Origin: Bacteroidota bacterium
GTDB lineage: Bacteria > Bacteroidota > Bacteroidia > Chitinophagales > Chitinophagaceae
Direction: 5' to 3'
Assembly (NCBI GenBank): GCA_013288285.1
Contig: JABDCE010000029.1
Location: forward strand, 1 to 33,149
Length of the DNA: 33,149 nucleotides
Shown here: in pieces, positions 713-32,976 of the stretch
Position numbering within the stretch: the stretch's first letter is position 1
How the letters are laid out: every line of letters begins with the position of its first letter
The notes under the pieces: model-generated
Database searches by the model: none
The model's input: only the letters and a program-made list of their open reading frames with translations
What the model was told of the DNA's origin: nothing
Program-made: the position numbers and the translations under genes

Positions 713-2458
713 GTGGCTAAGTCCAAAGTGAATATACCGTTACGCATTTTGTTTTTTTCGCTTGCGCTCATTGTGGTGTCTGCGGGTGCAGTAGCATGGT
801 GGTTTTCGCATCATTACGAAACTGTGCTGAAAGAACGTTTGCCGGGGATGATGCTACGGGCAACTGACAGCGTATATCACATTTCTTTCCAGGACCTGAA
901 TGTCAATGTGTTTGACCACAAGGTGACCATAACGGGCCTGGAGCTATGGGCGGATGAAAAGCAAGCGCTGGCCCTCAAACAACAACATCGCCATACGCCA
1001 CCTACGCTTTCTACGCTATCCATATCGCTGCTGGAAGTAACCGGTATAAACTGGCACAATATCATCTCTGACAAATCGATTGAGAGCGCACATGCCAGCG
1101 TACAAGATCTAAAATGGACAATGGATTGCTCACCCAACCCTAAAGACTCATTATATTCCAGGGACAAGAAAAAACCGGCGGCCATCACTTCAATAACATG
1201 CGACCATGTCGATTTTATCAACCCCGACATTACCTACCATTACAAAGGAATAAAGGAACATTTTGACTGTTACATGAAAGGAGGCACGGCAACCCTGGAA
1301 AATTTCGCCTATGACATGGATGAAAAGAAAGACACCAGTGTGTTTCTCTATGCGCGTTCGGGCAAGGTGCGTTTCAAGGATTTTATTTTCAGCAAGCCCG
1401 CAGGCCGGTACGTAATAAATGCACCGCTCCTGGATTTTGTAACTACTCCCAATACGGTGACACTCAGGTCAGTGAAGATCACGAACATGAGGGACCTGGA
1501 CCAGAAGACGGGCAAAGAGAAGGAATTTTACAATCTTGTTTTTCCGTCCATTGAGCTGGCCGGCTTTAACTGGAACAGGCTCATTAATGATGGCGAGTTG
1601 CTGATACCCGGCGTTCATGCTGCGGAACCATCAATTGATGTACACTACATCAGGGCAAATGCCGATGCAAATGCCCGGACAGGCGACTACCCCAACCAAC
1701 TGATGCTGGAAGTAGGCCTAAAGACAAACATTGAAAAAGTGAACATAAAGAACGGCCGGTTCAGGTATACCGAAGTAACGGCAAAAGGAGACGAGGGCAC
1801 CATAGAATTCTCCGGTATTCATAGCAGCTTCGCCAATATCACTAACCTGCCGGCTATTATCGCCCACGATAACTATTGCGCCGTAAAACTGGAAGGGAAG
1901 TATATGAACAAAAGCCCGCTGGCTGCCAATTTCAAACTCTACCTCAATGACAAAAAAGGCCACTTCACCATGGATGGCTACCTGGACAGCCTGAACGGAA
2001 ACGATGTGCAATCACAGGCAGCGGTCTTTACCATTGTTAAGGTCACATCCTTTAAGCTTAACCGCATGGATATGCACATAGAGGGCGATGAAACTTACAG
2101 CAAAGGCGACTTCACTGTACTCTATGATGACCTGAAAATATCGCTGTTCAAATTTGACAGCAAACAGCGGGAAACCCGGCATGGGCCGTTCGCATTCGTG
2201 GGTAGTGCGCTGTTGCTTTATCCCAGCAACCCTATGCCGGGCAAGGATGTTCGGAAAGTAACCACCTCCTTTGCCCGTGATACGACGAAGGGCTTTGTGG
2301 GTACTATATGGCAAAACATGTTCCGGTCGGTAAAAAAGAGCGCGATACGGGATCAGGGTATAGTTACGCTCACAGATGGCCCGGAAACCGCCAAAGGCCA
2401 GCAACCTAAAAAGGGTTTCTTTACCCGCTTATTCGGAAAGAAAAAAGGCCGTAGTTAA
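713..2458 (+). CDS. AsmA-like membrane-anchored protein, function unknown
   Basis: 581-residue protein with one N-terminal membrane segment (about residues 10-32, after basic MAKSKVNIPLR) and a long periplasmic-type region rich in short alternating beta segments, ending in a strongly basic tail (FFTRLFGKKKGRS). This layout resembles AsmA/DUF748-like proteins of Bacteroidota, a superfamily that also includes TamB and is linked to envelope lipid transport or outer-membrane biogenesis; the link here is by pattern, not by a diagnostic motif. The start is GTG: an in-frame TGA at 692-694 excludes an upstream start, and the membrane segment begins just after it. It follows the NlpC/P60 gene by 41 bp and may share its transcript. 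A hairpin at 2473-2507 follows. Confidence 0.7.
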   Translation: MAKSKVNIPLRILFFSLALIVVSAGAVAWWFSHHYETVLKERLPGMMLRATDSVYHISFQDLNVNVFDHKVTITGLELWADEKQALALKQQHRHTPPTLSTLSISLLEVTGINWHNIISDKSIESAHASVQDLKWTMDCSPNPKDSLYSRDKKKPAAITSITCDHVDFINPDITYHYKGIKEHFDCYMKGGTATLENFAYDMDEKKDTSVFLYARSGKVRFKDFIFSKPAGRYVINAPLLDFVTTPNTVTLRSVKITNMRDLDQKTGKEKEFYNLVFPSIELAGFNWNRLINDGELLIPGVHAAEPSIDVHYIRANADANARTGDYPNQLMLEVGLKTNIEKVNIKNGRFRYTEVTAKGDEGTIEFSGIHSSFANITNLPAIIAHDNYCAVKLEGKYMNKSPLAANFKLYLNDKKGHFTMDGYLDSLNGNDVQSQAAVFTIVKVTSFKLNRMDMHIEGDETYSKGDFTVLYDDLKISLFKFDSKQRETRHGPFAFVGSALLLYPSNPMPGKDVRKVTTSFARDTTKGFVGTIWQNMFRSVKKSAIRDQGIVTLTDGPETAKGQQPKKGFFTRLFGKKKGRS

Positions 2459-2472
2459 TCGATAAAAAAGTT

Positions 2473-2507
2473 AATGGCCAGTTAGCGTTGTGTTCTACCT
2501 GGCCATT
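2473..2507 (-). terminator. Intrinsic terminator between convergent genes
   Basis: Perfect 9-bp arms AATGGCCAG (2473-2481) and CTGGCCATT (2499-2507) with a 17-nt loop. Six A residues at 2464-2469 become a U run after the hairpin when read on the minus strand, so it best fits the end of the prolyl oligopeptidase transcript, whose stop is at 2531. On the plus strand no T run follows, though the hairpin may also slow the converging transcript. Confidence 0.6.
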
Positions 2508-2530
2508 TGCAAAAACATTCTACCACTCAA

Positions 2531-4648
2531 TTATGATTTATAAGTCAGCCCCATGTTCCAGAACAGGAAAGCCCACTTATCAGCCTGTTCAGAGATCACC
2601 ATTTCGGTTGGTTTTCCCGCTCCGTGTCCCGCCTTGGTTTCTATGCTTATCAGCACCGGGTTCTTGCAGGTTTGTGCCGCCTGCAGCGATGCCGAAAACT
2701 TAAATGAATGTGCCGGCACTACCCTGTCGTCATGATCACCGGTAGTCACCAAAGTAGCCGGATAGCAGGCTTTCTTTGTATTATGCACCGGGGAGTATTT
2801 ATACAGGTAAGCAAACATTTCTTTGTTGTCTTCCGCCGTACCATAATCATAAGACCATCCGGCACCGGCAGTGAACTTATTATACCGGAGCATGTCAAGT
2901 ACACCTACCGCAGGGAAGCATACCTGGAACAGATCCGGGCGCTGTGTCATGCAAGCGCCTATAAGCAAGCCGCCATTAGAACCACCTGAGATAGCCAGGT
3001 ATTGTTTGGAAGTATATTTTTCTTTGATCAGAAATTCGGCAGCCGCTATAAAGTCATTGAACACATTCTGCTTCTTTGTTTTGATACCGGCATTGTGCCA
3101 TTTGTCGCCATACTCGCCGCCTCCGCGCAGGTTGGCCACAGCATAGATACCACCGTTCTCCATAAAGGCCAGGTTGCTGACACTGAACGAAGGAGTAAGG
3201 CTGATGTTGAACCCGCCGTAGCCGTACAACATTACCGGGTTCTTACCGTCCATTTTCATTCCTTTCTTATAGGTAATGATCATGGGTATTTTCTCGCCGT
3301 CTTTCGATTTGTAAAACAACTGCTTGCTCTCATAAAGTGATGGGTCAAATTTCACGCCAGATACTTTATATATATCCGACTTGCCTGTTTTCAGGTCATA
3401 CTTGAAGATAGTGGGCGGATACACATAAGAGGTGTAGGTGTAGTAGGTCTCCTGCTCATCCATCTTACCGCCAAAGCCACCGGCTGTTCCCAGCCCGGGC
3501 AGCGTTATGGTCTTTTCCTTCTTACCATCGAGGCCGTACTGGTATACATGAGAGACTGCATCTTCGAGATAGTGGGCAAAAAACTTGTGCCCACAGGAGG
3601 ATACACTCAATGGAAATTTTGTTTCCGGGATCAGTGTCTTCCAGTGCTCCTTAGTGGGGTTAGCCGCGCTCACCACTACCAGCTTGCGGTTAGGCGCTCC
3701 CTGGTTTGTTTCTATATACAGGTTACCGTTTTCTGTATAGGCTATGCTCTGTTCAAAATCAAAGCCTGTTACCACCGGTACTATAGGCGCATTTTTCTTT
3801 GTCAGGTCTTGTATATACAATTCATTCCCGTAAGTAGCATTTGCGGCAGATATCACGAGGAATTGCTCGTCCTCTGTCACGCCACCGCCTATATACCTGC
3901 GCGGCGTGGCCTCTCCGCCAAATATGAGCTTGTCATCGCTTTGCGGCGTACCCAGTTTGTGGTAATACAGTTTGTGTATCTGTGTTTTTTCAGATAGCTG
4001 GCTGCCCTTGGGCTTGTCGTAACTGCTGTAGTAAAACCCGTCGTTGTGCAGCCATGAGGTGCCGCTGAATTTCACATCACGCAGCGTATCGTCCATTTTG
4101 TTCCCGGTCTTGGTATCTATCACTATTACTTTACGCCAGTCCGATCCGCCTTCGCTGATCTGGTAAGCCGCCAGCGAGCCGTCCTTTGTAAAATCTATAC
4201 CCTGCAGCGATGTAGTGCCATCGGCAGAAAACTTATTGGGATCCAGGAACACTTCCGGTGCTCCGTTCCCTTTCTGCCGGTAGAGGACACTTTGATTCTG
4301 CAAACCGTCATTTTTATAAAAGTAGGTATATTCGCCTTCTTTGAAGGGGGCTGAATATTTCTCATAATTCCACAATTCCGTGAGGCGTTTCTTTATCGCA
4401 TCGCGAAATGGTATCTGTGCCAGGTAGCCATTGGTCACATTGTTCTGCGCTACCACCCATGCCTTTGTCTCGTCCGACCGGTCATCTTCCAGCCACCGAT
4501 ACGGGTCAGCCACTTTGGTCCCGAAATAGTCGTCAGTTTGATTGGTCTTCCTCGTATCGGGATACTTACCCGTAAAATCTGTTTGCGCCTGTGCGTATGC
4601 CATTATACCCGTCATTAAAAAAGAAGTAAAAAGTCCGATTGCTTTCAT
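2531..4648 (-). CDS. Prolyl oligopeptidase (S9A), exported
   Basis: Serine peptidase that cuts short peptides after proline (EC 3.4.21.26-type). It has an N-terminal signal peptide (MKAIGLFTSFLMTGIMAYAQAQ, cleavage near residue 20-22), then the conserved DPYRWLEDDRSDETKAWVVAQN opening, a seven-bladed propeller region (about 75-430) and a C-terminal alpha/beta-hydrolase domain. The catalytic triad is visible: Ser557 in GGSNGG, Asp640 in GDHDDRVVP and His675 in KAGHGAGKPT; the Arg after the Asp pair, a known substrate contact in this family, is kept. At 705 residues it is full length. It is divergent from the TamB-like gene and probably acts in the periplasm on peptides. Confidence 0.93.
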   Translation of the reverse strand: MKAIGLFTSFLMTGIMAYAQAQTDFTGKYPDTRKTNQTDDYFGTKVADPYRWLEDDRSDETKAWVVAQNNVTNGYLAQIPFRDAIKKRLTELWNYEKYSAPFKEGEYTYFYKNDGLQNQSVLYRQKGNGAPEVFLDPNKFSADGTTSLQGIDFTKDGSLAAYQISEGGSDWRKVIVIDTKTGNKMDDTLRDVKFSGTSWLHNDGFYYSSYDKPKGSQLSEKTQIHKLYYHKLGTPQSDDKLIFGGEATPRRYIGGGVTEDEQFLVISAANATYGNELYIQDLTKKNAPIVPVVTGFDFEQSIAYTENGNLYIETNQGAPNRKLVVVSAANPTKEHWKTLIPETKFPLSVSSCGHKFFAHYLEDAVSHVYQYGLDGKKEKTITLPGLGTAGGFGGKMDEQETYYTYTSYVYPPTIFKYDLKTGKSDIYKVSGVKFDPSLYESKQLFYKSKDGEKIPMIITYKKGMKMDGKNPVMLYGYGGFNISLTPSFSVSNLAFMENGGIYAVANLRGGGEYGDKWHNAGIKTKKQNVFNDFIAAAEFLIKEKYTSKQYLAISGGSNGGLLIGACMTQRPDLFQVCFPAVGVLDMLRYNKFTAGAGWSYDYGTAEDNKEMFAYLYKYSPVHNTKKACYPATLVTTGDHDDRVVPAHSFKFSASLQAAQTCKNPVLISIETKAGHGAGKPTEMVISEQADKWAFLFWNMGLTYKS

Positions 4649-4807: not shown

Positions 4808-7800
4808 CTGAAGCGCTTTTTAAAAATATTCCGTTACTCAATAGCCATTTTGCTCCTATTGATAGTGACCTGTGTTGTGCTGATAAATCTGACCCCGGTT
4901 CAGAATTATCTTGCCGGCAGAGCTGCGGAACTGCTGTCACGGAAGATGAAAACGGAAGTGAGGGTAGCACATGTTCGCGTAGACCTCCTCAATCATATTT
5001 CACTCGAAGGCGTTTACATAGGCGACCAGGCGCATGATACCCTGTTATATGCAGGCGAAGTACAGATAAGGTTGACAGATTGGTTCCTGTTCAAAGAAAA
5101 GCCGGTCTTACATTATCTGTCGCTCGGCAACACTTACGTGCACCTCTATCGTACTGCTGCGTCCAAAGACTGGAACTATGATTTCCTGGCGAACGCATTC
5201 GTCACCACGAAAAAAGATAAGGATACCAGTACCAACAACCCCATCCGGTTCGACCTGAAGAAAATAGAGCTGAGCAATGTACGGTTTCACTATGATGACA
5301 AATGGGGAGGAGAAGACCAGGATTATGACATAGGTACTTTGCAGATAAATGCGGATGGCATCGACTACAACAAAAAGATGCTGCAGGTAAATGACATCGT
5401 TGCCAAAAACTGCAATATCATAATTAAAGAATATGCTGCAGCTCGGCCTAAGTGGATGCGCCCCCCAACGGTTGACACTTTTGACACCACGCCCTTTAAC
5501 CCCGAAAAATGGGCCGCCAATGTAAAAAGCGTTTCGGTGGAAGGCTGCGAATTTCACCTGGTAATGAACGATAAGAAGCCGGTGCCCGGAGAATTCGACT
5601 ATAACCACATTGACGCAACCAAGGTCAAAGCCTACGTTACCAACGGCACGATAAGGGGCGACACTATACGCGGCACGGTAGAACACTTTGAAGTAAAAGA
5701 GCGGTGCGGTGTCGCTATACGCAACATGCGCAGCAAGGTCACAGTATCGCCCATAGCCTCTATCTGCGACAACCTCTTCCTGGAGACCAACTACAGCACG
5801 CTGCATGACAAATATGCGATGCATTACAAGCACTTCCCGGATTTTATTAATTACATCGACAGCGTAACAATGAGTGGCAATCTGAACAACTCTATTGTGG
5901 ACATCAGGGACATCGCCTACTTCGCCCCGGAGTTGAAAGCATTCCCACCTATAGTACTCCATGTATCGGGCGACGGCGGGGGCACCGTTTCCAACCTTCA
6001 TGCGCAGCACATCAATGTCAGCGATGGCAATACAGTTGTAAAAGGCACCCTCACCATGAAGGGCCTGCCGGATATTTACAAAACCTACATCACTTATTCT
6101 GATGGGGAACTGTTTACCACCAATGCAGGTATCATCAGGTATGCACCCGCCCTGAAGACGAATCCCAACATCAACATGAGCAGTATTGTTTACGCTTATT
6201 TCAAAGGTCGGTATGAGGGCTATGTGCAGAACTTTGCGGTCAATGGTGTGATCACCACAAACCTTGGCTCGATAGGCGCCAATATCAAAATGAACATACC
6301 GGGTTTCGTTGGCAGCAATGCGGTATACTCCGGGCATATCAGTTCAGACCAGGTGCAATTGGGCACTTTTTTCAAACAACCGCTGCTGGGCAGCATAACG
6401 TTTAATGAAGATATATCAGGCGCATCCTTCAACCCGGAAAAGGTGCAAATGAACATTGACGGCACCATCAAAGAATTTATTATCAATAACTACGCCTATC
6501 ACAACATCATTACGCACGGCACGCTGGCAAAGAAGCAATTCAACGGCACACTGATGGTCGACGACCCCAACCTGGCCCTTGAGTTCGACGGCGGCATCAA
6601 CTACGGCAATAAGAACGTAAACATCAATGCCACAGCGCACATGCTGGGCTGCAACTTCAAGGCGCTGAACATACTGAAAGACTCCGTGACCGGGTCAGCC
6701 GATTTCGACCTTAACTGCACCGGCAGCAATATTGATAACTTCTCAGGCTACGCGAAGCTGAACAACATAAATATGAAACGGAACAGCCGCAAACTGGCTA
6801 TCGATTCTGTTTTCTTAAATGCTACCGGGGAGAACGATCATAAATCCCTCACCATACAAAGTGATGACCTGGTAGCGAGTATCACCGGCAATTATCAGCT
6901 TAGTAATCTACCCGCATCCGTGCAGTATTACCTATCGCGTTACATACCTAACTACATCAGCACACCTGCAAAGTTCGCACCGGAACAGAATTTTAAGTTT
7001 ACAGTCACCACCCGGAACATAGACAGCATACTGGCGGTAACCACCCCATTCATCAGGGGGTTTGATTCATCTACAGTCAGCGGTTCTTTAAACACCTCGG
7101 CACAGAAAGTAACGCTGATGGCCAGCATACCTAACGGCAGCATCGGCAAGTTTCACATGAACAATGTGGCGGTCAACGGGCAAGGCAACCTGGACGCTAT
7201 AAGCCTCAGCACCACCATAGACAATGTGGTGATAGGAGATAGCTCACTGAGCGGCTCTTTAAGCCTTACTGCGGCACTTGCCAACGACTCGGTATCCTTT
7301 ACCATAGCCACCACCACCCCCGACCCAAGCAGCTCCATAGCCCTGAACGGACAGATCATTGCCCGGAAAGACTCCTTATTCCTGAACATATTGCCGTCAC
7401 AGTTTTTCCTCAACCAGGTGAAATGGGACATTGCTGGCGGCAGCAAAATAGTATACAGCGACAAATACCTCTCTGTAGCGGGGCTGTCGCTCACATCTGG
7501 CCTGCAAAAAATCTCCGCGTCCACTGAATTGCAGAACCAGGACAAAACACTGATCATAAGCACGGAGAACCTCGATCTCGGGCAATTCGGGTCATGGGCA
7601 GGGTTTGCCGCCTACCAGCCCGATGGGCGTGTGAACGGCACGATACAGATCAATAAATTATTCCAGGACCTGTACGTAAGTGCCAACCTCAAAGCCACCG
7701 GCGTACTACTGGGCACTGATACCCTGGGCACTGTTAACTTCATCGGCGACTATGATGGGGCAAAAAAGCTATACAGTCTCGACCCCCAGACCGGCATTTA

Positions 7801-9604
7801 CAGAGACAATGCGTCCCTCACTGCTTCCGGTAATATCTCTTTCGACAGCGCCACCAACCAGAAACTGGATGGTGCTATCCAGTTCAACAACGCCCCTGTT
7901 GCCTGGTCGTCTACCTTCCTCATGGGTATTATGAGCCGTTTGTCCGGCACACTGAATGGCAGCATTAATTTTGGCGGATCGGCTTATGCACCGGTAATCA
8001 AGGGCGAGGTAGCCTTGCACAACGCAGGTTTCCGCGTAGACTACCTGGGCTGCAACTACACCATACCTACCGCCGACATACATGTAGATAACCGCACCAT
8101 CAGCTATGGCAGTGTTACTGTTCTAGACAACTATAAGAATCCCGCAACACTCACCGGCCATTTCTCGCACAATATGTTCCGCGACATGAGAATGCACTTA
8201 TCGGTTAAGTCAAAGAAATTTGAAGTAATAAACCTTACCAATAACGACAATAACCTTTTCTACGGCAATATTATCGCCAGTATGGACTCATTCACTATCA
8301 AAGGCCCGTTCAATTACGTCCGGCTGAATATTTATAATGCCGCACCTGCAGCAAAGTCACGCATCTATATACCCCTTATCACCGGCGGCGATGTAGGCAC
8401 TTACAACTATGTTTCTTTTAAGAAATACGGCAAAGACCAGGAGAAGGTAACAAGAAAGACCCCGTTCAAAATAGACGTGAATATTGACGCCAACCTGAAT
8501 ACGCTGGCAGAAATGCACATCGTCCTCGACCCGTCTACCGGCGATGAGATCATGGCCCGTGGCGATGGACGCATACAGTTGGACATACCATGGGATAACG
8601 ATATACACACTACCGGCCTGTACAATATCGACAACGGGGCTTATACCCTTACGTTCAAGTCGCTGTTCATTCACCGTATATTCAAGCTCAATTCGGGCGT
8701 CATTAGTTTCAACGGGCCGTTTTCAGAGACCAGCCTCAATGTGGACGCGGTTTATACTGCCAAAGCAAAGCTGGCCGACCTGCTCAATGAAACGGACCTG
8801 AGAAGCTTATCTGATAACGAAGTAAAAGATGCCCAGACGCCCCAGTGGGTAAATGTATCGCTGAATATGAGTGGCCAGTTAAAAAGCCCCAAGCTCACAT
8901 TCGACCTCGACCTCGAAGACAAACACTCCCAAAGCACATTTGCTTACCACAAATTAATGCTCATCAATGCAGACGATCGCCAGAAAACGGAAGAGGTCTT
9001 TTCACTGCTGCTCATCAGCAGTTTTATCCCGCCTGAAGGCATTGGATCGGGCACAGTGGCTACCGGCACTTTAAATAATATCAGCCAGGTAATATCCAGC
9101 TCTGCCTCTACAGGCCTAACCAATATCGCCAGCAAAATAACCGGCGACAAACAATTAAATATTGACGTAAAGTACACCAACTATAACTATAACGACCAGG
9201 CATTGGGCGGCATAAACAGGAACCAGGTGAAAGTAGCCGCCAGCAAAAACTACTTCAATGATAAGCTGGAACTGGAAGTGGGGGGCACCTCTGACTGGGG
9301 ACGGCCCACCAGTGCAGCAAGTACATCTACTATCAACATCACAGGCGACTTCCGGCTCCAATACCGGCTTAGCTACGCCAGCGGCCTGAGGCTCGACTGT
9401 TTCCGTACCAGCGATTATGATGTGACCATCGATCGTGATATTATCCGCAGCGGGGTGGGTATAAGCTGGCGCAAATCATTTGATAACTTCAGTGACTTTT
9501 TCAGAAGCAACCAGTACATGGCCCGCAAGAAACAACAGGAAGAGAACAAAACACCGGACCCTGCTGATACCACTGCCAAACAAGCAGCATCAGGCACGGA
9601 ATAA
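4808..9604 (+). CDS. tamB: TamB-like translocation/assembly module protein (DUF490)
   Basis: Very long (about 1,598 residues) inner-membrane-anchored, periplasm-spanning protein of the TamB/AsmA superfamily, which forms a hydrophobic groove and is linked to outer-membrane protein assembly and phospholipid transport. It shows an N-terminal membrane segment (KIFRYSIAILLLIVTCVVLINLTP), the typical following phrase VQNYLAGRAAELLSRKMKTEV, hundreds of residues of repeated short beta strands, and a C-terminal DUF490-like region from about residue 1050 containing IYIPLITGG and the SLLLISSFIPPEG phrase. Start choice is difficult: the frame is open from an in-frame TAA at 4787 but has no ATG or GTG before the membrane segment. 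CTG at 4808 gives a complete basic-plus-hydrophobic anchor; TTG at 4850 would cut the anchor in half. Its stop lies 3 bp from the stop of the convergent glycosyltransferase. No TamA/BamA partner is in the window. Confidence 0.85.
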   Translation: MKRFLKIFRYSIAILLLLIVTCVVLINLTPVQNYLAGRAAELLSRKMKTEVRVAHVRVDLLNHISLEGVYIGDQAHDTLLYAGEVQIRLTDWFLFKEKPVLHYLSLGNTYVHLYRTAASKDWNYDFLANAFVTTKKDKDTSTNNPIRFDLKKIELSNVRFHYDDKWGGEDQDYDIGTLQINADGIDYNKKMLQVNDIVAKNCNIIIKEYAAARPKWMRPPTVDTFDTTPFNPEKWAANVKSVSVEGCEFHLVMNDKKPVPGEFDYNHIDATKVKAYVTNGTIRGDTIRGTVEHFEVKERCGVAIRNMRSKVTVSPIASICDNLFLETNYSTLHDKYAMHYKHFPDFINYIDSVTMSGNLNNSIVDIRDIAYFAPELKAFPPIVLHVSGDGGGTVSNLHAQHINVSDGNTVVKGTLTMKGLPDIYKTYITYSDGELFTTNAGIIRYAPALKTNPNINMSSIVYAYFKGRYEGYVQNFAVNGVITTNLGSIGANIKMNIPGFVGSNAVYSGHISSDQVQLGTFFKQPLLGSITFNEDISGASFNPEKVQMNIDGTIKEFIINNYAYHNIITHGTLAKKQFNGTLMVDDPNLALEFDGGINYGNKNVNINATAHMLGCNFKALNILKDSVTGSADFDLNCTGSNIDNFSGYAKLNNINMKRNSRKLAIDSVFLNATGENDHKSLTIQSDDLVASITGNYQLSNLPASVQYYLSRYIPNYISTPAKFAPEQNFKFTVTTRNIDSILAVTTPFIRGFDSSTVSGSLNTSAQKVTLMASIPNGSIGKFHMNNVAVNGQGNLDAISLSTTIDNVVIGDSSLSGSLSLTAALANDSVSFTIATTTPDPSSSIALNGQIIARKDSLFLNILPSQFFLNQVKWDIAGGSKIVYSDKYLSVAGLSLTSGLQKISASTELQNQDKTLIISTENLDLGQFGSWAGFAAYQPDGRVNGTIQINKLFQDLYVSANLKATGVLLGTDTLGTVNFIGDYDGAKKLYSLDPQTGIYRDNASLTASGNISFDSATNQKLDGAIQFNNAPVAWSSTFLMGIMSRLSGTLNGSINFGGSAYAPVIKGEVALHNAGFRVDYLGCNYTIPTADIHVDNRTISYGSVTVLDNYKNPATLTGHFSHNMFRDMRMHLSVKSKKFEVINLTNNDNNLFYGNIIASMDSFTIKGPFNYVRLNIYNAAPAAKSRIYIPLITGGDVGTYNYVSFKKYGKDQEKVTRKTPFKIDVNIDANLNTLAEMHIVLDPSTGDEIMARGDGRIQLDIPWDNDIHTTGLYNIDNGAYTLTFKSLFIHRIFKLNSGVISFNGPFSETSLNVDAVYTAKAKLADLLNETDLRSLSDNEVKDAQTPQWVNVSLNMSGQLKSPKLTFDLDLEDKHSQSTFAYHKLMLINADDRQKTEEVFSLLLISSFIPPEGIGSGTVATGTLNNISQVISSSASTGLTNIASKITGDKQLNIDVKYTNYNYNDQALGGINRNQVKVAASKNYFNDKLELEVGGTSDWGRPTSAASTSTINITGDFRLQYRLSYASGLRLDCFRTSDYDVTIDRDIIRSGVGISWRKSFDNFSDFFRSNQYMARKKQQEENKTPDPADTTAKQAASGTE

Positions 9605-9607
9605 CAC

Positions 9608-11068
9608 TTACCTGCTCACGATCCTGAACGACAATCCATCACCCACCAATACAAACTTGATACCCGGCGGCAATACCCGCAAATATTCGTTCAGCTTTGT
9701 CAGACTACTGATACCATACACAGGAAGATTACCAGATACGGTATAGGCAGGAAAAGTCTTTAGTACCCAGTCTCCCGGCACAGTAGTATTATAAGGAAGG
9801 TTCCGCGTGTTATCGTATGGCCACGCCACCGCAGGTGTGATCACTATAGGCAGCTTATCTAACTCCGCTACCTTCAGCGCATTTTCCGTCGATTTGAATA
9901 TCTCCATCTTCCGGGTGTATTCAGGCCCGGTAATACTGGCGTAGAACGTGGTATAAATGTTACCGATAACACCTATGTACAACATCACCGACAACCCGCC
10001 GGCAAACTTTGCAGCCCGTGGATAGCTCCTTAAATTGTCTAAGAAAAAGATCATCAGTATAGACACTGCCGGTATGGCAAATGCATTCAACCTCGGCTCT
10101 CCCAGCGGCAGTTTCCCTGCCACAAACAGCACTATGGACAGTATCAGCAGCAATGAACTGTACAATACCATTACCTCTTTCCCGCCCAGTTCATTCTTTA
10201 CCAGGCTTTTCACACAGCTATATACACCAAACAGGAATGAGCTGATACCAAGTATGCCAAACAGGTACCAGAACAGCATACCCGCGCCTATCTCCGCAAA
10301 CAGATTATAACAGTTCATAAAAAATGAAGACCAGCTAAACCCGCCGTCCATCATCAGGTGTCCCCAGAACTTATGCATCCCCTGGTCTGCCATTAACTGT
10401 TTCACATCTATAAAATAGAACGTCACAATGCCGCATGCGCTTAAAAATAACGGGAACCACTGGCGCATAAGCATACCGGCAGACAGCGTATGTTTTCTCA
10501 GGTCAACAACACCCTGCAGCAATAAAACCACAAACACCGGCGCTATCACCACGGGGTATGTATAACTAAAAAACGGCGCTGCCAGGAAGCTGGCACACAG
10601 CAATACATACCTGCCACGGCGCAGCCGTTCCTTATCTTTTAGCTGCAGCAATTCTATGCATTGCCACAATGCCACCAGGCTCATCAGCAGGTCCATGGTG
10701 TACTGTTTTATCTGCACATAGTAGTCCGTAAATGTACATGCCGATACCAATATCATTACAAAAAGGAATCTATTGCTGTTGTCCTTTCCATACATCTTGT
10801 TCATTAAGCGGTAGCAGAAGAATATGGTAAACGTGCCCACGACATACGATGGCAGCCGCAGTGCGTAATAACTATAATCAAATGTGGAAGTAAACGCCTT
10901 CACAATCTCCAGATACACCCTTGGGAATTGCTGTAGAAAATCCAGCGGGCCCCAAAGCATAGCGGCGCTTTTATATTTTAGATTGTAGATAACCCGCCAT
11001 TCGTCTATCCAGAAAGGGCGTATCTGCGCCACCACCATGACAAGCCCCCAGCACACCATAAAAGACAA
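9608..11068 (-). CDS. GT-C type membrane glycosyltransferase (GT39/ArnT-like)
   Basis: Polytopic membrane protein of 486 residues or slightly more, with around ten hydrophobic segments. The first extracytoplasmic loop carries RPFWIDEWR, the acidic D-E motif typical of GT-C enzymes that use polyprenyl-phosphate sugars, followed by the LRLPSYVVGTFTIFFCYRLMNKMYG phrase common in GT39/ArnT-like proteins. It probably moves a sugar onto an envelope acceptor; donor and acceptor are unknown. The end given uses a TTG at 11066-11068, which begins inside the first membrane segment. The frame stays open to a TAA at 11123-11125, encoding a plausible cytoplasmic lead-in (IRNPEKIIRVATIATL) without any ATG or GTG, so the true start is unresolved. 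It lies just downstream of purF on the same strand. Confidence 0.72.
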   Translation of the reverse strand: MSFMVCWGLVMVVAQIRPFWIDEWRVIYNLKYKSAAMLWGPLDFLQQFPRVYLEIVKAFTSTFDYSYYALRLPSYVVGTFTIFFCYRLMNKMYGKDNSNRFLFVMILVSACTFTDYYVQIKQYTMDLLMSLVALWQCIELLQLKDKERLRRGRYVLLCASFLAAPFFSYTYPVVIAPVFVVLLLQGVVDLRKHTLSAGMLMRQWFPLFLSACGIVTFYFIDVKQLMADQGMHKFWGHLMMDGGFSWSSFFMNCYNLFAEIGAGMLFWYLFGILGISSFLFGVYSCVKSLVKNELGGKEVMVLYSSLLLILSIVLFVAGKLPLGEPRLNAFAIPAVSILMIFFLDNLRSYPRAAKFAGGLSVMLYIGVIGNIYTTFYASITGPEYTRKMEIFKSTENALKVAELDKLPIVITPAVAWPYDNTRNLPYNTTVPGDWVLKTFPAYTVSGNLPVYGISSLTKLNEYLRVLPPGIKFVLVGDGLSFRIVSR

Positions 11069-27159: not shown

Positions 27160-28563
27160 CTAATGCCAGAATTGGCTTTTGTCGCTTCTGTGCAACCTGT
27201 ATTTTCTGATAGCTCTGAAGTTCTGCAAAAGCATTGTGTTTTGTGGCGAAGACGGCTGATTTTGCGTCCAATTACCAATCGACTTATATGCCATAACCAT
27301 ATCATAATCCATTCCTACCTGACCGGCATTGAAGGCTACATTACCATAGTCATCCCTAAACCATTTCATCCAGTCCGGACTACCTGGAGTATACACTATA
27401 CCTCTGAAATCCAGGTAGGGACTTGGCATCAGGAACGATTTAAATGTATCCTGTGCCGGGATATGACAGCTCATGCAGGAAGATAAGGCCAGTCTTGGAT
27501 AAACTTGGTGCGTTGTGTAGTCAGTAACATTATTGGCTACCGCGCCATCATTTGGACCACTGAGCCTGCCGCCCCATCCCAGGGTTTCTGTACTGTATTT
27601 TGGGGCTGCGGGATTAATAACTGTTTCATACAGCTTTGGGTATGGCGGTTGTTGTGGGCTTTTTACATCCGGATCATTGCCCCACATCGCTCCCAATGGC
27701 ACCATTTTATCCCAATAGCTGGTTCCGGTGGCATTCATATCGTATACAAATGTGGAATAGACCCAGCCCGTTTTAGGGGCTGTTTTACTGTCCTTAACAA
27801 TGACGTCCATTTGAAAAAAGCTAACAGTGCGAACCTGGTACCCTGTTTTAGGGTTTCCGGTTGTTGCACCCGTATCATAAATGCTAAAGGTTTGCGCACC
27901 CTGCATTACCGGCCATTGCGGCGCATTAATGTTTGAAAAAGCAAGCTTTACAATAACACTGCCTTCTTTAAACTGGGCGGCATCATTTACAAGGTTAACT
28001 TTTTGCCCGGTTGTGCCCCATATCTGCCCCACGGTATATCCCGCTAAAGAATCATACAAAACCACGGCATACCCTGCCTCGGGCTCGTTCAGGGTAGTAA
28101 ACATACCTGAATCATTTCCGTTCCCTAAGTAAGCGCCCAGGATGGCTTCTCTGTCTGCGCCCATCCATGGCTCCTGGAACCATCCGTATTTTGCAGCAGT
28201 CCATTCTTTATTGTTTGTGAAAAACGGCAATAAATTTGCGGCAATGTAGTTTTTTAGCGCATTCATATATGCTATGGTGTTTGCGCTGTCGATGGGCTGG
28301 CCGTTCAATGCCTGCTGCCACGGTGGATTAACAAGTGCTTGGGCTGTCGTCGGGTAGTTGTGACTGAGCACAAAAAGCGGACCGTCATACTGCGCTTTTG
28401 TGGGTACAGAATCGCGGTGGTCCTGGAACGGGCCACTCATTGTTGGGCCTGCTGTGTCCGATTTGGCTTCGCCCTCTTTGGACTGACCACCGCCACAGCT
28501 GGAAACTATAATGACCGTGGCTGATAAAATTGCGATGGTCGAAAAAAGGAATATTTTTTTCAT
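27160..28563 (-). CDS. Lipoprotein with a single c-type heme site, unknown function
   Basis: 467-residue predicted lipoprotein: MKKIFLFSTIAILSATVIIVSSCGGGQ ends in an SSC lipobox (Cys23). Residues 30-340 are unlike any family I recognise, with GPLFVLSHNYPTTAQALVNPPWQQAL, WFQEPWMGADREAILGAYLGN and a tail of W/G-rich phrases. A c-type heme site CMSCH is at 363-367 (RLALSSCMSCHIPAQDTF), followed by the motif PSPYLDFRGIVYTPGSPDWMKWF. It resembles, by layout, periplasmic electron-transfer or substrate-oxidising proteins with a C-terminal cytochrome part; only one heme is seen. It is the last minus-strand gene of the tyrosinase neighbourhood, after a 290-bp gap, so co-function with tyrosinase is only a guess. 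Confidence 0.65.
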   Translation of the reverse strand: MKKIFLFSTIAILSATVIIVSSCGGGQSKEGEAKSDTAGPTMSGPFQDHRDSVPTKAQYDGPLFVLSHNYPTTAQALVNPPWQQALNGQPIDSANTIAYMNALKNYIAANLLPFFTNNKEWTAAKYGWFQEPWMGADREAILGAYLGNGNDSGMFTTLNEPEAGYAVVLYDSLAGYTVGQIWGTTGQKVNLVNDAAQFKEGSVIVKLAFSNINAPQWPVMQGAQTFSIYDTGATTGNPKTGYQVRTVSFFQMDVIVKDSKTAPKTGWVYSTFVYDMNATGTSYWDKMVPLGAMWGNDPDVKSPQQPPYPKLYETVINPAAPKYSTETLGWGGRLSGPNDGAVANNVTDYTTHQVYPRLALSSCMSCHIPAQDTFKSFLMPSPYLDFRGIVYTPGSPDWMKWFRDDYGNVAFNAGQVGMDYDMVMAYKSIGNWTQNQPSSPQNTMLLQNFRAIRKYRLHRSDKSQFWH

Positions 28564-28690
28564 GTTATGTGGGATTTTATTTTTTTAATGTAATTGTGTA
28601 AAATGTTTTGCGCGTTCGCCAGTCTGTGGCGCCCGCCAACTTCGCTCATCATTGCATTTCGTCGTTACGTTTTCAAGGTGAACGGCACGG

Positions 28691-28721
28691 GATTGATCGC
28701 AATAAAGAATTGCAATCAATC
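28691..28721. repeat. 13-bp inverted repeat in the 290-bp gap
   Basis: GATTGATCGCAAT (28691-28703) and ATTGCAATCAATC (28709-28721) pair at 12 of 13 positions around AAAGA. No T run follows on either strand, so it is not a classical terminator. The surrounding gap (28564-28853) also holds a smaller hairpin CGCCA-GTCTG-TGGCG (28617-28631) and is richer in GC between about 28610 and 28740 than at its ends. I see no gene in it. Confidence 0.5.
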
Positions 28722-28853
28722 CTGGCCGATAGATGGCTCAACGCTGTTTTACCATATTTTTTCAATCCTTTTACTTTCATAAATAAGCTTCCTGCTATTG
28801 GAAATTATTCCGGAAAAATGTCCATTATCGGCGGAATGAGCGCCTATTGCATC

Positions 28854-29534
28854 TCATGAAGGCAAACCATACAGTCCCGGGTCTTTAAGTGGCAGAATAG
28901 TGTCGGGTGGTATTGGTGCGTCTCTTTGGTACACCATAATCCCGGCAGTTTGCCGTGCTATTTTTTCTCCGTCTATCTGCTCCACCAGGTGCAAAGCGCC
29001 ATCTATGCCAGAGGTAATACCACCGGTAGTAATAAAGATGCCATCCGCAACAAACCTTTTGTTCTGGATAAAACTGATTTGCGGATACATTTTTTGAATA
29101 CTGCCATCGGAGTTATCTGCCAGGTTCAGAAAATGCGTTGTAGCTTTTCTACCGTTCAGCAGGCCTGTTTTGGCAAGTGTGTAAATGCCTACGCACACAG
29201 ACATTATATAGGTATGCTTCCTGGGATGCGCAAGAACTTTTTCTCCAAATTCTTTTACCCATTTCACTATTGCAGGGCTCGCCTCATTATCGTCAGTGAT
29301 AAGGCCGGGTAGCACAATAATATCAGGCATCGGACAATCATAAATAGTATAGGTGGGACATATGGAGACCACATCTTTTTCAGTGATTCTCGGCATCCCT
29401 TTTTCCGCTACCGTATATATGTTATACCTATTATTATTCGACCTGTTGGCTTTTACAAAAACATCAATCGGGCCGTTCATGTCCACGAGCTCAACCTCAT
29501 TGTAAAATATCACTGCTACATTTATCTGGGACAT
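28854..29534 (-). CDS. DJ-1/PfpI superfamily protein (isonitrile hydratase-like)
   Basis: 226-residue cytoplasmic protein of the DJ-1/PfpI fold. The nucleophile is Cys114 in YIMSVCVGIYTLAKTGLLNGRKATTHF; the SVCxG...GLLxGRKATTHW-type phrase is shared with isonitrile hydratase and with the N-terminal domain of GlxA-type AraC regulators. The N-terminus (INVAVIFYNEVELVDMNGPIDVF) has the conserved acidic elbow (Glu14-Asp18). There is no AraC DNA-binding domain, so it is an enzyme-like or stress protein rather than a regulator. Candidate activities are isonitrile hydration or carbonyl/quinone detoxification; sequence alone does not decide. It lies 213 bp downstream of tyrosinase on the same strand, with a 13-bp inverted repeat between. 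Confidence 0.78.
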   Translation of the reverse strand: MSQINVAVIFYNEVELVDMNGPIDVFVKANRSNNNRYNIYTVAEKGMPRITEKDVVSICPTYTIYDCPMPDIIVLPGLITDDNEASPAIVKWVKEFGEKVLAHPRKHTYIMSVCVGIYTLAKTGLLNGRKATTHFLNLADNSDGSIQKMYPQISFIQNKRFVADGIFITTGGITSGIDGALHLVEQIDGEKIARQTAGIMVYQRDAPIPPDTILPLKDPGLYGLPS

Positions 29535-29657
29535 AAGAATTTTATTTAAGTACTGTTTGATTTAAATAATACTTGACAACATCAAATATTGCATCGTTAC
29601 GCCTTTATCGGGATTGATTTCCAATATGGATAATTTAGCCCCGGGAAAGACCAACCT

Positions 29658-29700
29658 TAATGTAAACAGGTCACCCGATTACAGGTGCCTGTTTACATTA
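29658..29700 (+). repeat. Strong hairpin with T-rich tail, terminator-like on the plus strand
   Basis: Perfect 13-bp arms TAATGTAAACAGG (29658-29670) and CCTGTTTACATTA (29688-29700), extended by CACC/GGTG inside after a 1-nt bulge; loop CGATTACA. The plus strand continues TTATTTATTTTTT, the layout of an intrinsic terminator, but both flanking genes (tyrosinase and DJ-1) run on the minus strand. Read in their direction the hairpin has no T run, so it may mark an antisense terminator, an mRNA-stabilising structure or a regulator site. Confidence 0.6.
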
Positions 29701-29747
29701 TTATTTATTTTTTGTGCCGCATCTTTACGGCAGAGTCGGCGCTAAAC

Positions 29748-31604
29748 CTACACTACCTGTAGCTTAAATGGATTTTTATGATGTATGCCCGTATCATGTG
29801 AAGCGATGGCAGTTTTCATCAATGTAGAATTTGCAGCTATTGTTCCTGATGCTGATGCACTGACAGATTTTGTAAAATTTGCCTGGTTTGCAACAGTAAA
29901 TTTCGCAAATTCCGTAGCATTGCCCGAACGCCCCTGTATCTGCACATCATAAATAGCATGCTGCAGTTCACTCTCAGAAAAACGGTAAAGGCTGAATATG
30001 GCAGTAACCTCCAGGTTAATCATGCAATTCTTACAAGCTACTACTCGCCACCTGCTCAGCACAGCATGGCTGCCTAAGTAATATCTGTTTCCATTGATGG
30101 TTGCATACGCCAATACGACAAAAGACCCATTGATCTTTGCCCTGTTTATCCCGTCCACTATCAGCACTTTGTTGCTTTTATGCACTGGTGCCGGTTTCGC
30201 TTTTGCTACTGCTATGGCCTTTAACGTTTTTGCCATTCCGTCTGTATTATCAAGCGATAAGTTATCGTAGGTAAATCCAAGCTGTTTCTCTATGTTGAAA
30301 ACATCTTTGGATTGATAGTTTCGCTCAACGCCGTTCTCAACTAATTTAAAAGGATAAAGCGGCGATTCCATTGTCAATTGTTCAGTTGGCTCATAACCTG
30401 TAGGGGGTTGGTTATTTATGTTATTCGTTCCGGGATATGGGCCTGCCGCTATAGTTGTAGCAGACAGTTGAGGTACGGATATGTCAATATTGTTTGTAGA
30501 CTTATGCTTTACCTGCCACATCCAGAATATTCGGTCCACGTTGCAGTGATGAAAGAAAAATATAGGGTCAAGACCTGCGGTTTCATTTTCGCCCATATCG
30601 CCATTGGCGTCAGCCGCTGGTAAGAACGGATTAGGCGAATTTGGATCGGCATCCTGTGTCGGTGCGTTTATCCCGCCAACTGCCAGGTGAATTTCACCAT
30701 GTGGATTTTCCAGTGCCTGTGTTAGTGGTTTTAGTTGCTTGGGATGTTCTTTATTCCAATTCGCTACGTCTTTGTTCCATTGGGTTACAGATGTGGAGTT
30801 AGAAAAAACGGTGTAGCACGGTGCATCCAGGCTCAGATGGTAACCTGCGTCTACGCCATCGGGTTCGCCAATTGGCGCTTGCGGATCTGAAGGGGTAGCT
30901 CCTGGCTGCATTTCAGAGCCACTGAGCCATCCCAGTACATTACCGTTAAGCAAAGAAGTGGTCAATGCATTATCTATAATATTTGTTCCGGCTATATAGT
31001 ATGCGCTGTTGTTTACTTTTGATGCAGCGGCGGCTTCCGGCGTGCCTACAAGCCCGGATAGCGGATAACGCACAGTCTCATATCCCTGGGGCTTCGTGTA
31101 CAGGTTCACTTCTCCCGAGTCTTGTAGTGCCAACGGTAGTGTGAATGATTTAAGTGGGTTTGGTATCGTAATGCCGTCTTTAAATGTGAAGTATTCATCA
31201 GTGAGGCAGGAGGGTATGCCCAGGTAAGTAAGATTGCCGTCCTTCCCGGTTATTTTATAGGTCTGATCCCAGTATGGCAGCATTACACTATCGCATCCGG
31301 GTACGCTTTGCAGTGCCTTCTCTAACTTGTGCAGGTAAACCCTGTGCCATGTCGGGAAGAGAATATTACCGTGATTACAATACCCGCCCCAATAGTTGGC
31401 CACATCGTAAGAACCTCTTCCGGCGAAAGGCTCGCCATGGTAGCCCCCAAGCGCGAAGAATGAATTCGGATCGCTGGCCGGCAATGACTTGATAAATTGC
31501 CATGCTACCATTAATTTTTCCAGGGGATCCTTGTCTTTGCCGCTCGTAAAGTCGTTCTGTATGTCTATAAGAGAACGGCGGACTTTCAGTGATGTCTGTG
31601 TCAT
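29748..31604 (-). CDS. Tyrosinase/polyphenol oxidase with C-terminal cap domain
   Basis: 618-residue type 3 copper protein that oxidises phenols and/or catechols to o-quinones. The central domain carries both copper sites: CuA His56, His78 and His87 (WGGYCNHGNILFPTWHRVYLHKLEKAL; spacing 22 and 9) and CuB His302 and His306 (PHGEIHLAVGG) with His352/353 (DPIFFFHHCNVDRIFWMW). Cys76-Asn-His78 matches the C-x-H thioether of fungal tyrosinases. From about residue 395 a second domain resembles the C-terminal segment of plant/fungal polyphenol oxidases, which covers the active site until removed; here it includes SNKVLIVDGINRAKINGSFVVLAY and a CKNC pair. No signal peptide is visible. It is fourth in a close minus-strand run. 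Substrate is unknown. Confidence 0.9.
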   Translation of the reverse strand: MTQTSLKVRRSLIDIQNDFTSGKDKDPLEKLMVAWQFIKSLPASDPNSFFALGGYHGEPFAGRGSYDVANYWGGYCNHGNILFPTWHRVYLHKLEKALQSVPGCDSVMLPYWDQTYKITGKDGNLTYLGIPSCLTDEYFTFKDGITIPNPLKSFTLPLALQDSGEVNLYTKPQGYETVRYPLSGLVGTPEAAAASKVNNSAYYIAGTNIIDNALTTSLLNGNVLGWLSGSEMQPGATPSDPQAPIGEPDGVDAGYHLSLDAPCYTVFSNSTSVTQWNKDVANWNKEHPKQLKPLTQALENPHGEIHLAVGGINAPTQDADPNSPNPFLPAADANGDMGENETAGLDPIFFFHHCNVDRIFWMWQVKHKSTNNIDISVPQLSATTIAAGPYPGTNNINNQPPTGYEPTEQLTMESPLYPFKLVENGVERNYQSKDVFNIEKQLGFTYDNLSLDNTDGMAKTLKAIAVAKAKPAPVHKSNKVLIVDGINRAKINGSFVVLAYATINGNRYYLGSHAVLSRWRVVACKNCMINLEVTAIFSLYRFSESELQHAIYDVQIQGRSGNATEFAKFTVANQANFTKSVSASASGTIAANSTLMKTAIASHDTGIHHKNPFKLQVV

Positions 31605-31637
31605 GTTGTTTGATTTTGTTTTTTATTATTTTGATTA

Positions 31638-32105
31638 CTAATTCATTTGTGGTGTTGCCATTTGTAAACGATTTCCCGAAAAAGTGTTGAGCAGTGAACC
31701 TGAAATAATTAAAGCCATCCCCAAAAAGAGCAGCCATTTATCACCTGGTATAAATGTTCTTGCAGCAAGTATGGTTAATGCCCCCACCAGGCTCATCAAA
31801 AACGGAAGGTAATAGGCAAGTCGCCGCGCCTTCTTATATAACATGAACAGGTGGATACCCAGGAATACCAACAGTACCGGAAGTAGCCAGCTCAGGTAGG
31901 CCATTTTCGCCAGCCCTAGGCAGCTAAACATACTCATATACACCGCCCAGCAAAGCGGGCATTTCGGAAAAAATGCGATCACTATGCTCAACAATACTGA
32001 TGGCACAGACCGCACAGTTTTCTTTACTTTTATCAATGGCTTTATTTCTGATGCTGCCGGCTCGCTATGGCAGCAACATTTTGCAGTTTCCGCTGAGTTG
32101 TTCAT
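31638..32105 (-). CDS. MerC-like Cys-rich four-helix membrane protein
   Basis: 155-residue membrane protein with four hydrophobic segments. The N-terminus carries a Cys cluster (CCCHSE, residues 10-13), and the first membrane segment holds FFPKCPLCWAVYMSMFSCLGL with Cys49, Cys52 and Cys62, a paired-Cys layout seen in MerC/MerT-type mercury transporters. A further stretch SLVGALTILAARTF resembles the last helices of such proteins. Role by inference: binding or moving a soft metal ion, possibly copper for the adjacent tyrosinase. It ends 33 bp before tyrosinase and begins 17 bp after the 149-aa gene. I am confident of the membrane nature and Cys pattern, less of the family. Confidence 0.7.
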   Translation of the reverse strand: MNNSAETAKCCCHSEPAASEIKPLIKVKKTVRSVPSVLLSIVIAFFPKCPLCWAVYMSMFSCLGLAKMAYLSWLLPVLLVFLGIHLFMLYKKARRLAYYLPFLMSLVGALTILAARTFIPGDKWLLFLGMALIISGSLLNTFSGNRLQMATPQMN

Positions 32106-32122
32106 ATTGCATCATTTTAGAA

Positions 32123-32572
32123 TTATTTTTTAGTGGTTTCTAATTCCTGGTAAACAGCAAAAAAAGAAGCAACCAATCCTGCTTGTTCTCCGCCGGGATG
32201 CGGAATCGCACGTGTAACGCTGCCTACCAGGGCAGGTATCTGCCGCACACCTTCCGGAATATGCGGCACAACATAACATAGGTAGTCGTAGATCCACGGT
32301 GCACCGCCTATTGTACCACTCCCGCGGAACCATAACGTAGCCGGATTGCCCTGCTGAACCGACCCTTTCAGATCAAGGTGCCAGCCATCGCCACCTATTG
32401 TCCCTGTCAGCTTACCATCGGCCGAGGTTATTATGTTCAGTGTCCCCTGTCCAAATTCAGGACAGTAAGTGTTATCACCTTGCGTTAAGTCGTGTGATAA
32501 ATTCGGATCATTCTTAAAACTTCTGTAGGCCCAGCGGCCCGTACCCGGAACAGTTTGATTTGCATTCGACAT
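32123..32572 (-). CDS. 149-aa protein of unknown function in the tyrosinase run
   Basis: Unrecognised soluble protein without a signal peptide. It reads as a single compact beta-rich domain: GTGRWAYRSFKNDPNLSHDL, then GQGTLNIITSADGKLTGTIGGDGWHLDLKGSV and LWFRGSGTIGGAPWIYDYLCYVVPHIPEGV, with alternating hydrophobic strands and a Cys at about position 37 (TYCPEF). Three His residues in the later half (WHLD, PHIP, PHPG) could bind metal. It lies 47 bp after the ABM gene and 17 bp before the MerC-like gene, so it is almost certainly co-transcribed. A small tyrosinase partner, such as a copper chaperone, is one idea; I can show no homology for it. Confidence 0.7.
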   Translation of the reverse strand: MSNANQTVPGTGRWAYRSFKNDPNLSHDLTQGDNTYCPEFGQGTLNIITSADGKLTGTIGGDGWHLDLKGSVQQGNPATLWFRGSGTIGGAPWIYDYLCYVVPHIPEGVRQIPALVGSVTRAIPHPGGEQAGLVASFFAVYQELETTKK

Positions 32573-32619
32573 ATTTTCTATTTTATTGGTTTAAGAAATG
32601 ATAATATTTTGTTGGCAGT

Positions 32620-32976
32620 CTATAAGATGCCTGGCCTGATGTAGCCGGCATGGTGCGTGAGAAACTCAACCGAATTGTAGGGCCCGCCCTTTTCAGTGGA
32701 AAGGAACAACGACCCATAATCTGCTACGAAAGCCACGAAAGCCTTACTCGCTACATGTTCATCAAACGCAGCCTTGTCTTTATAAATTTCGAAGAAAACC
32801 ACCGTGTCGCCATAAGGCGTCGGCAGGCTGGCTTGGCTCATATTCGGTGTATGCACCAGGTAGGCCAGGGTGCCGGCCTGTGTCTCTTCTACAGTTGCTG
32901 CAAGTTGTTTAAGGGCATCAAGTACCTTGGTCTTGTTGCCGGGCAGTATGGTCCATATTGAAATGAGTGGATACAT
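32620..32976 (-). CDS. ABM-family protein (putative quinol monooxygenase, YgiN-like)
   Basis: 118-residue antibiotic-biosynthesis-monooxygenase-type ferredoxin-like domain: YPLISIWTILPGNKTKVLDALKQLAATVEETQAGTLAYLVHTPN followed by DTVVFFEIYKDKAAFDEHVASKAF, the pattern of YgiN-type quinol monooxygenases and related small dimeric enzymes. These act without cofactors on quinol-like substrates. It is the first gene of a close run with the 149-aa protein, MerC-like protein and tyrosinase, which makes a role on phenol/quinone intermediates plausible. TACTTTG at 33011-33017 (minus strand) is a weak promoter -7 candidate. A small palindrome CCGTA-TATT-TACGG lies at 33041-33054. Confidence 0.78.
   Translation of the reverse strand: MYPLISIWTILPGNKTKVLDALKQLAATVEETQAGTLAYLVHTPNMSQASLPTPYGDTVVFFEIYKDKAAFDEHVASKAFVAFVADYGSLFLSTEKGGPYNSVEFLTHHAGYIRPGIL

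Follow-up and report, generated by a model that had tools for sequence, protein, structure and literature searches.

A Bacteroidota tyrosinase gene cluster hints at a little-known bacterial way of running copper oxidases

The stretch of DNA analysed here, referred to as the window, is one entire contig of 33,149 bases (JABDCE010000029.1, assembly GCA_013288285.1) from a member of the Chitinophagaceae (Bacteroidota). Its minus strand carries a tyrosinase gene (618 amino acids (aa), 29748..31604) preceded by genes for a MerC-like four-helix membrane protein (155 aa, 31638..32105), a 149-aa protein here called U149 (32123..32572) and an ABM-domain protein. The reading favoured here, with somewhat more confidence than doubt, is that the MerC-like protein delivers copper to a tyrosinase that has no recognisable leader, and that U149 is a barrel accessory of this enzyme, perhaps binding a phenol or quinone. 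Considered separately, copper supply is the most likely role of the MerC-like protein, given its genomic context and conserved cysteines, and assistance to the enzyme through substrate or product binding is the most likely role of U149, given its predicted fold and its exchange of enzyme partners. Tyrosinases accompanied by a copper helper gene are a kind of arrangement already known; the operon hints at a little-known bacterial way of running copper oxidases.

U149 recurs beside type-3 copper enzymes. Scanning 84,980 genomes with a profile yielded 30 relatives, whose flanks were fetched up to 8 kb, and a type-3 copper gene adjoins U149 in 25 of these 30 loci: 24 of PF00264 type, called by similarity to reference tyrosinases and confirmed with Pfam for L044, L046, L058 and, through other copies, the L033 and L052 types, and one of hemocyanin type. 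LodA is also present in 13 of the 30, all of which have a tyrosinase, and 12 type-3 copper loci lack LodA, making tyrosinase the more constant partner of U149. The association also holds in genome samples not selected by tyrosinase, comprising 395 Bacteroidota (the source genome included) and 240 Alphaproteobacteria (the seed included), each with U149 relatives in five genomes on that same count. When the source genome is excluded, PF00264 is found in three of the four U149-positive Bacteroidota against a background of 16/394 (Fisher p 2.2e-4); when the seed is excluded, it is found in three of the four U149-positive Alphaproteobacteria against 15/239 (Fisher p 7.8e-4). The two genes are adjacent in five of the six double-positive genomes of both samples. 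Most tyrosinases have no U149, which is thus a partner of some but not all of them. Among plasmids, 107 of 72,556 records match U149, mostly rhizobial and 90 of them conjugative. Six of nine records opened list a tyrosinase beside U149; of the remaining three, one is an insertion-sequence-flanked remnant, one has a DUF2182 gene separated from U149 by a gap with no listed gene, and one carries no annotation. The check proposed in the first-pass annotation of this DNA, whether homologues of the 149-aa and MerC-like proteins stand beside tyrosinases in unrelated Bacteroidota, has a positive outcome in other Bacteroidota and beyond, and such homologues are not usually found apart, which the annotation had named as a refutation.

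The U149 sequence matches no Pfam or NCBIfam family, and a 26-row profile gave no PDB sequence match. When the 26 members were compared with Pfam, the MelC1 caddie family included, no family was matched, apart from one chance match at 0.066. An AlphaFold2 (AF2) model (pLDDT 84.4, pTM 0.80) predicts an eight-stranded avidin-type barrel, the feature by which the avidin family is recognised. In a fold search with this model avidin-type barrels top the list, and designed barrels score alike. Across the 26 relatives H125 is invariant, and there is neither an invariant cysteine nor a metal-type motif. The fold, together with the exchange of enzyme partners, gives a weak indication that a phenol or quinone may be bound. 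The barrel of the quinohemoprotein amine dehydrogenase alpha subunit (1jmx_A, 176-283) has 11% identity to U149 and shares only the fold. The tyrosinase of Agaricus bisporus has a lectin-like light subunit, likewise a small beta-rich partner, but no fold comparison of this subunit with U149 stood out, and avidin-type barrels lead.

A general role for U149 is further suggested by its distribution over enzyme classes. In a tree of 54 tyrosinases (5 of 59 sequences, L060, L112, L119, L122 and L131, were dropped), the U149-linked enzymes fall into three leaderless clades plus the twin-arginine (Tat)-borne L065. These clades are of btTyr type (11 sequences), LodA type (16 rows, one U149-negative) and DUF7868 type (6 rows, two U149-negative). 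On quick trees with long branches, U149 state changes at least seven times along the tyrosinase tree, and partner class changes at least five times among the three tyrosinase classes along the U149 tree (from which L061, L062 and L010 were dropped). These latter changes imply that U149 has moved between enzyme classes. As the classes are very different, U149 more likely binds a shared phenol or o-quinone than one enzyme surface.

Some unusual relatives were seen in the course of this comparison. In a cyanobacterium (L060, a Desmonostoc metagenome-assembled genome), an arthropod-type hemocyanin/phenoloxidase gene (8001-10972; PF00372 2.4e-36, PF03723 1.8e-32; Hemocyanin_M and Hemocyanin_C) lies directly behind U149. 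In a planctomycete protein (L062, 500 aa, 7803-9305) and in L010 (762 aa, 1739-4027), a U149 domain is joined to a His-rich part with tyrosinase-like CuB wording, which reads NPVFWRLHGWVDDRIEDWF in L062. The L062 gene is followed by one for a ferritin-like (PF12902) fusion protein. In hhalign comparisons with a tyrosinase profile, L062 reached E 1.9e-4 at 48% probability and L010 only 0.4%, which is suggestive of a putative fusion of U149 to a type-3 copper domain in L062 only, not in L010.

The window tyrosinase matches PF00264 at 137.5 bits (cut-off 22.6, E 1e-39), and is the one PF00264 gene found in the source genome, which is 57.67% complete. All six copper histidines are present (H56, H78, H87, H302, H306 and the HH pair at 352-353), within the motifs GGYHGEPF, YCNHGNILFPTWHR, ENPHGEIH and DPIFFFHHCNVDR at 53, 75, 299 and 346. 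The closest solved enzyme is Burkholderia thailandensis tyrosinase, btTyr (5zrd_A; 446.3 bits over residues 6-571, including the C-terminal part), and the window enzyme belongs to the btTyr clade of 11 in the tyrosinase tree. With this full-length similarity, it is predicted to be a type-3 copper phenol oxidase of the btTyr class. The available part of PMC10526336 lists btTyr as regulated through its C-terminal extension, with a Cys-His thioether, and a CxH motif is present in the window tyrosinase. At HisB1+1, directly after the first CuB histidine, the enzymes of the window, L043 and L045 have Gly (HGEIH, 30690-30700 in the window), where all other tabulated U149-linked PF00264 enzymes have Asn. 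Judging from sequence, this Gly may affect monophenol activity. The same three loci are those whose U149 has an extra NTYC-type insert. Hydrophobicity, twin-arginine and lipobox heuristics recognised no leader or signal peptide in the window tyrosinase; by the same heuristics 31 of 32 U149-linked tyrosinases lack a leader, and 16 of 27 other tyrosinases have one. A correlation between leader state and U149 state was considered and not established, since the tree provides five independent pairs, about one of which differs in leader.

In the MerC-like protein, an alignment of 14 relatives shows invariant C10, C12, F46-P47-K48-C49 and C52-W53, giving an N-terminal CxC and an FPKCxxCWAxY motif (FPKCPLCW in the window). 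A divergent copy (L057) keeps all four cysteines. PF03203 (MerC) is matched by 9 of the 14 relatives at E <= 0.1 (best 8.2e-4), and PF09948 (PpoB2) has no match in the window protein. The structure model is poor (pLDDT 67.9, four helices with CxxC), and no PDB match was found at E <= 0.001. MerC-like proteins had no match among the plasmids. No mercury genes turned up in the compared loci, where no family search was aimed at them.

The idea that a metal-type membrane protein supplies copper, already raised in the first-pass annotation, is strengthened by context, because at other loci PpoB2 stands in the position of the MerC-like protein. The Pfam entry PF09948 carries the name PpoB2, "Copper chaperone", and PpoB2 is the reported copper-transfer protein of the Marinomonas PpoB1 tyrosinase operon (PMC2855505). 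The comparison covered 32 loci in which U149 and a type-3 copper gene occur together (the 25 scanned loci, the window, L063-L066, L083 and L084), open frames containing at least 20 unknown residues having been removed. In cis, 15 have a MerC-like gene, 6 a PpoB2-family gene, none both and 11 neither. These PpoB2 counts cover loci in cis only, with PF09948 scanned in two proteins and the other labels given by phmmer similarity or record annotation. The MerC-like protein thus occupies the place of PpoB2 in U149 loci. Tyrosinases without U149 show similar neighbours: L095 is followed by a MerC-like gene, and L092 and L093 by PpoB2-like genes. The strongest sign of joint function is co-occurrence without linkage in Flavobacterium, where the five genomes that carry U149 and tyrosinase together without a MerC-like gene at the locus all encode a MerC-like protein elsewhere. 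A MerC-like profile run on 316 Bacteroidota found four genomes (the source genome included), all among the 17 that are PF00264-positive; the chance that the three others would all be so is p ~5.5e-5, and two of them share a genus. A U149-MerC-tyrosinase locus closely resembling the Bacteroidota copies (L038) is present on a contig binned as Limnohabitans (Betaproteobacteria), through either transfer or misbinning.

In the mechanism proposed here, the MerC-like protein would be anchored in the inner membrane through about four helices and would take copper at the FPKCxxCW site. The metal would then pass, via the N-terminal CxC segment, to the apo-tyrosinase. In Marinomonas, this role is the one that PpoB2, an unrelated membrane protein, is reported to fill. 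The tyrosinase itself would reside in the cytosol. The U149 barrel would work alongside the type-3 copper enzyme, with a phenol or o-quinone as its ligand.

Several observations weigh against this reading. In five of the 30 scanned U149 loci (L034, L036, L039, L061 and L062), the neighbourhood lacks a separate type-3 copper gene. For L034 and L036 a PF00264 gene is on another contig of the genome; in L039 and L061 U149 adjoins a CxxCH lipoprotein, and L062 is the fusion protein described above, all three in genomes without PF00264. The two weakest alphaproteobacterial relatives, L085 (partly masked) and L086, have no adjoining tyrosinase, and a second U149 copy in one plasmid record (L087) adjoins a multicopper oxidase and no tyrosinase. 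The window MerC-like protein scores 17.1 bits against PF03203, below the cut-off of 27.6 (E 0.0087), and copper would be its metal only by inference. Among the 11 loci with neither membrane protein in cis, eight genomes were searched: a MerC-like gene lies elsewhere in five, one has a 43-bit match with a stop and two have none. The two Nitrosomonas genomes account for one absence and for the 43-bit match with a stop, and the cyanobacterium has none. One U149 partner, the S. meliloti tyrosinase of L065, has a Tat leader; leader absence elsewhere was judged by heuristics, and independent tree contrasts are too few for a test of leader against U149. Finally, Burkholderia tyrosinases of the btTyr class are reported as active when produced alone in E. 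coli (PMC9189705). Neither partner is thus indispensable there, and the helpers may count only in the native cell or at limiting copper.

Other explanations of the gene set assign its parts differently. It is fairly unlikely that the tyrosinase is exported without a classical leader. On that view the cluster would be a modified secretion locus, of the kind serving melanin formation or an amino-acid oxidase, and copper would be loaded at the membrane by the membrane protein. LodA-type loci have these genes too, the Tat-borne S. meliloti enzyme also has U149, and most described bacterial tyrosinases are secreted, as PMC3817396 and PMC3658974 have it in their available parts; however, no recurring export gene appeared when the loci were compared with reference proteins, a comparison that did not extend to scanning every neighbour for families. 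There is a small chance that U149 instead serves the tyrosinase as its copper chaperone or caddie, in the way of Streptomyces MelC1, and that the membrane protein is there only for general copper uptake. Its size, its place beside the tyrosinase and the invariant H125 are caddie-like. Yet it has no invariant cysteine or metal-type motif and matches no Pfam family, MelC1 included, and the exchange with PpoB2 involves the membrane protein, not U149. Moreover, the btTyr class is listed with a C-terminal extension and no caddie in the available part of PMC10526336, and a Burkholderia cepacia enzyme is active when produced alone (PMC9189705).

A similarly small probability attaches to a redox role for the MerC-like protein. 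DsbB and VKOR are four-helix membrane thiol/quinone proteins, and a MerC-like protein acting in their manner would reduce or take up quinones from the oxidase. The predicted four helices with CxxC would fit, as would the quinone-forming partners, LodA among them. On the other hand, MerC is the only family that matches most of the relatives (9/14, best E 8e-4), models of DsbB and VKOR are absent from the matches, a fold search with the poor model gave no match, and the exchange is with a copper protein. Lastly, U149 and the MerC-like protein could be passengers of mobile oxidase islands, joined by transfer without joint function. The largely conjugative plasmid records and the scattered taxa are in keeping with this, but it is very improbable in view of the exchange with PpoB2, the co-occurrence at a distance in Flavobacterium and the recurrence of U149 with several enzyme classes.

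The proposed delivery of copper by the MerC-like protein, with U149 as accessory, has a close counterpart in the PpoB1/PpoB2 operon of Marinomonas mediterranea, which also combines a tyrosinase gene with a dedicated copper-transfer membrane protein; the window differs in having a MerC-like protein without PF09948, an added U149 and an enzyme of the btTyr class. Within that class, a Burkholderia pyrrocinia locus has U149 and no MerC-like gene in cis. Streptomyces MelC1/MelC2 is likewise a tyrosinase with a small helper gene, but U149 has no Pfam match and the Streptomyces enzyme is exported (PMC3817396, in its available part). A small gene beside tyrosinase is also known from LodA group ID operons, where Campillo-Brocal 2015 (PMC4417212, available part) describes a 138-142-aa gene of no known domain or function, placed between lodA and lodB, together with tyrosinase and multicopper oxidase. 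That layout is matched by L066 (R. ruizarguesonis, 138 aa) and L083 (143 aa), the correspondence of this gene to U149 being one of layout, with no comparison of the sequences in PMC4417212. The window differs in having no LodA/LodB, as do 11 other type-3 copper loci among the 30 scanned.

The first-pass annotation had called the module possibly undescribed, which holds only in part. A literature search found neither a MerC-like protein in a copper-delivery role nor U149 as a general type-3 copper companion in print, and no work joining tyrosinase with bacterial MerC, judged by the titles listed, or with DUF2182; the small gene of LodA operons was reported in 2015. That gene now gains a predicted fold and a constant partner, and helper genes are offered for recombinant tyrosinases. 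Bacterial tyrosinases are treated as secreted in reviews (PMC3817396), and in the available part of PMC3658974 the secreted subclass is the only one reported from bacteria. A more far-reaching and rather doubtful possibility is that cytosolic type-3 copper oxidases are widespread and have been overlooked. Each would have its own copper importer, MerC-like or PpoB2, and its own avidin-fold protein to capture or guide the reactive quinone, as a functional counterpart of dirigent-type barrels. If so, MerC-like proteins would include copper importers, beyond mercury carriers. With a large set of tyrosinases that lack a recognisable leader and have a membrane copper protein as partner, cytosolic copper loading and the importer behind it become testable.

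Six minus-strand genes had been proposed as one module, and a check of the open reading frames confirmed all six at their positions, with gaps of 47, 17, 33, 213 and 290 bp. The ABM-domain protein (118 aa, 32620..32976; PF03992 E 6.9e-11) opens the likely transcript, and the contig, with which the data end, extends 173 bases upstream of it. Downstream of the tyrosinase is a hairpin (29640..29720, minus strand) of 19 pairs, interrupted by a single bulge (dG -29.2 kcal/mol, z -4.85; 0 of 200 shuffles equally stable), which sets the ABM-U149-MerC-tyrosinase core apart from the DJ-1 and heme lipoprotein genes beyond. The earlier view that the first four genes share one transcript fits this hairpin, but the hairpin lacks a T run, and taken together the promoter- and terminator-like motifs do not exceed chance (counts of 14 and 6, with 12.9 and 6.5 expected). 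The four genes probably form a single transcript ended by the hairpin. The same gene order is repeated in a second genome (L043), and the cluster is thus more than chance.

As a module of six, the set does not hold together. Among 40 U149 loci (39 compared loci and the window), ABM genes are found in two, the window and L043, in the same place; ABM is a clade-specific passenger. DJ-1 genes are found in 11, several directly ahead of U149 and one (L034) without any tyrosinase; DJ-1 is a recurrent but optional associate. The window DJ-1/PfpI protein (226 aa, 28854..29534; PF01965 E 1.2e-16) has isonitrile hydratase InhA as its nearest solved structure (3non_A, E 3.9e-13). Isonitriles are copper ligands, and by analogy with isonitrile hydratase the protein could conceivably detoxify such compounds next to a copper enzyme. 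The last gene encodes a P460-like lipoprotein (467 aa, 27160..28563) with a single CMSCH motif, which matches cytochrome P460 (PF16694) at E 0.0032, below the curated cut-off. It was rejected as a module member and is probably a mere neighbour: hhalign gives 35% probability for its relation to the CxxCH lipoproteins of related loci, a different family, and of its relatives in 28 plasmid records, the three opened are not beside a listed tyrosinase. These plasmid relatives are mostly from rhizobia and Agrobacterium, and one on a Bradyrhizobium plasmid matches at 42%.

The CxxCH lipoprotein family of the related loci (~440-555 aa) recurs beside U149 in 14 of 39 loci (L033, L039, L041, L047-L055, L057 and L061), with no Pfam match in the three proteins scanned and no profile match in the PDB better than E 0.02. 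In L061 a tandem pair of U149 copies (5742-6674) lies ahead of a CMSCH lipoprotein, and PF00264 has no match in that genome. In L053 the LodA gene (5741-7959) is in two frames, of 151 and 574 aa.

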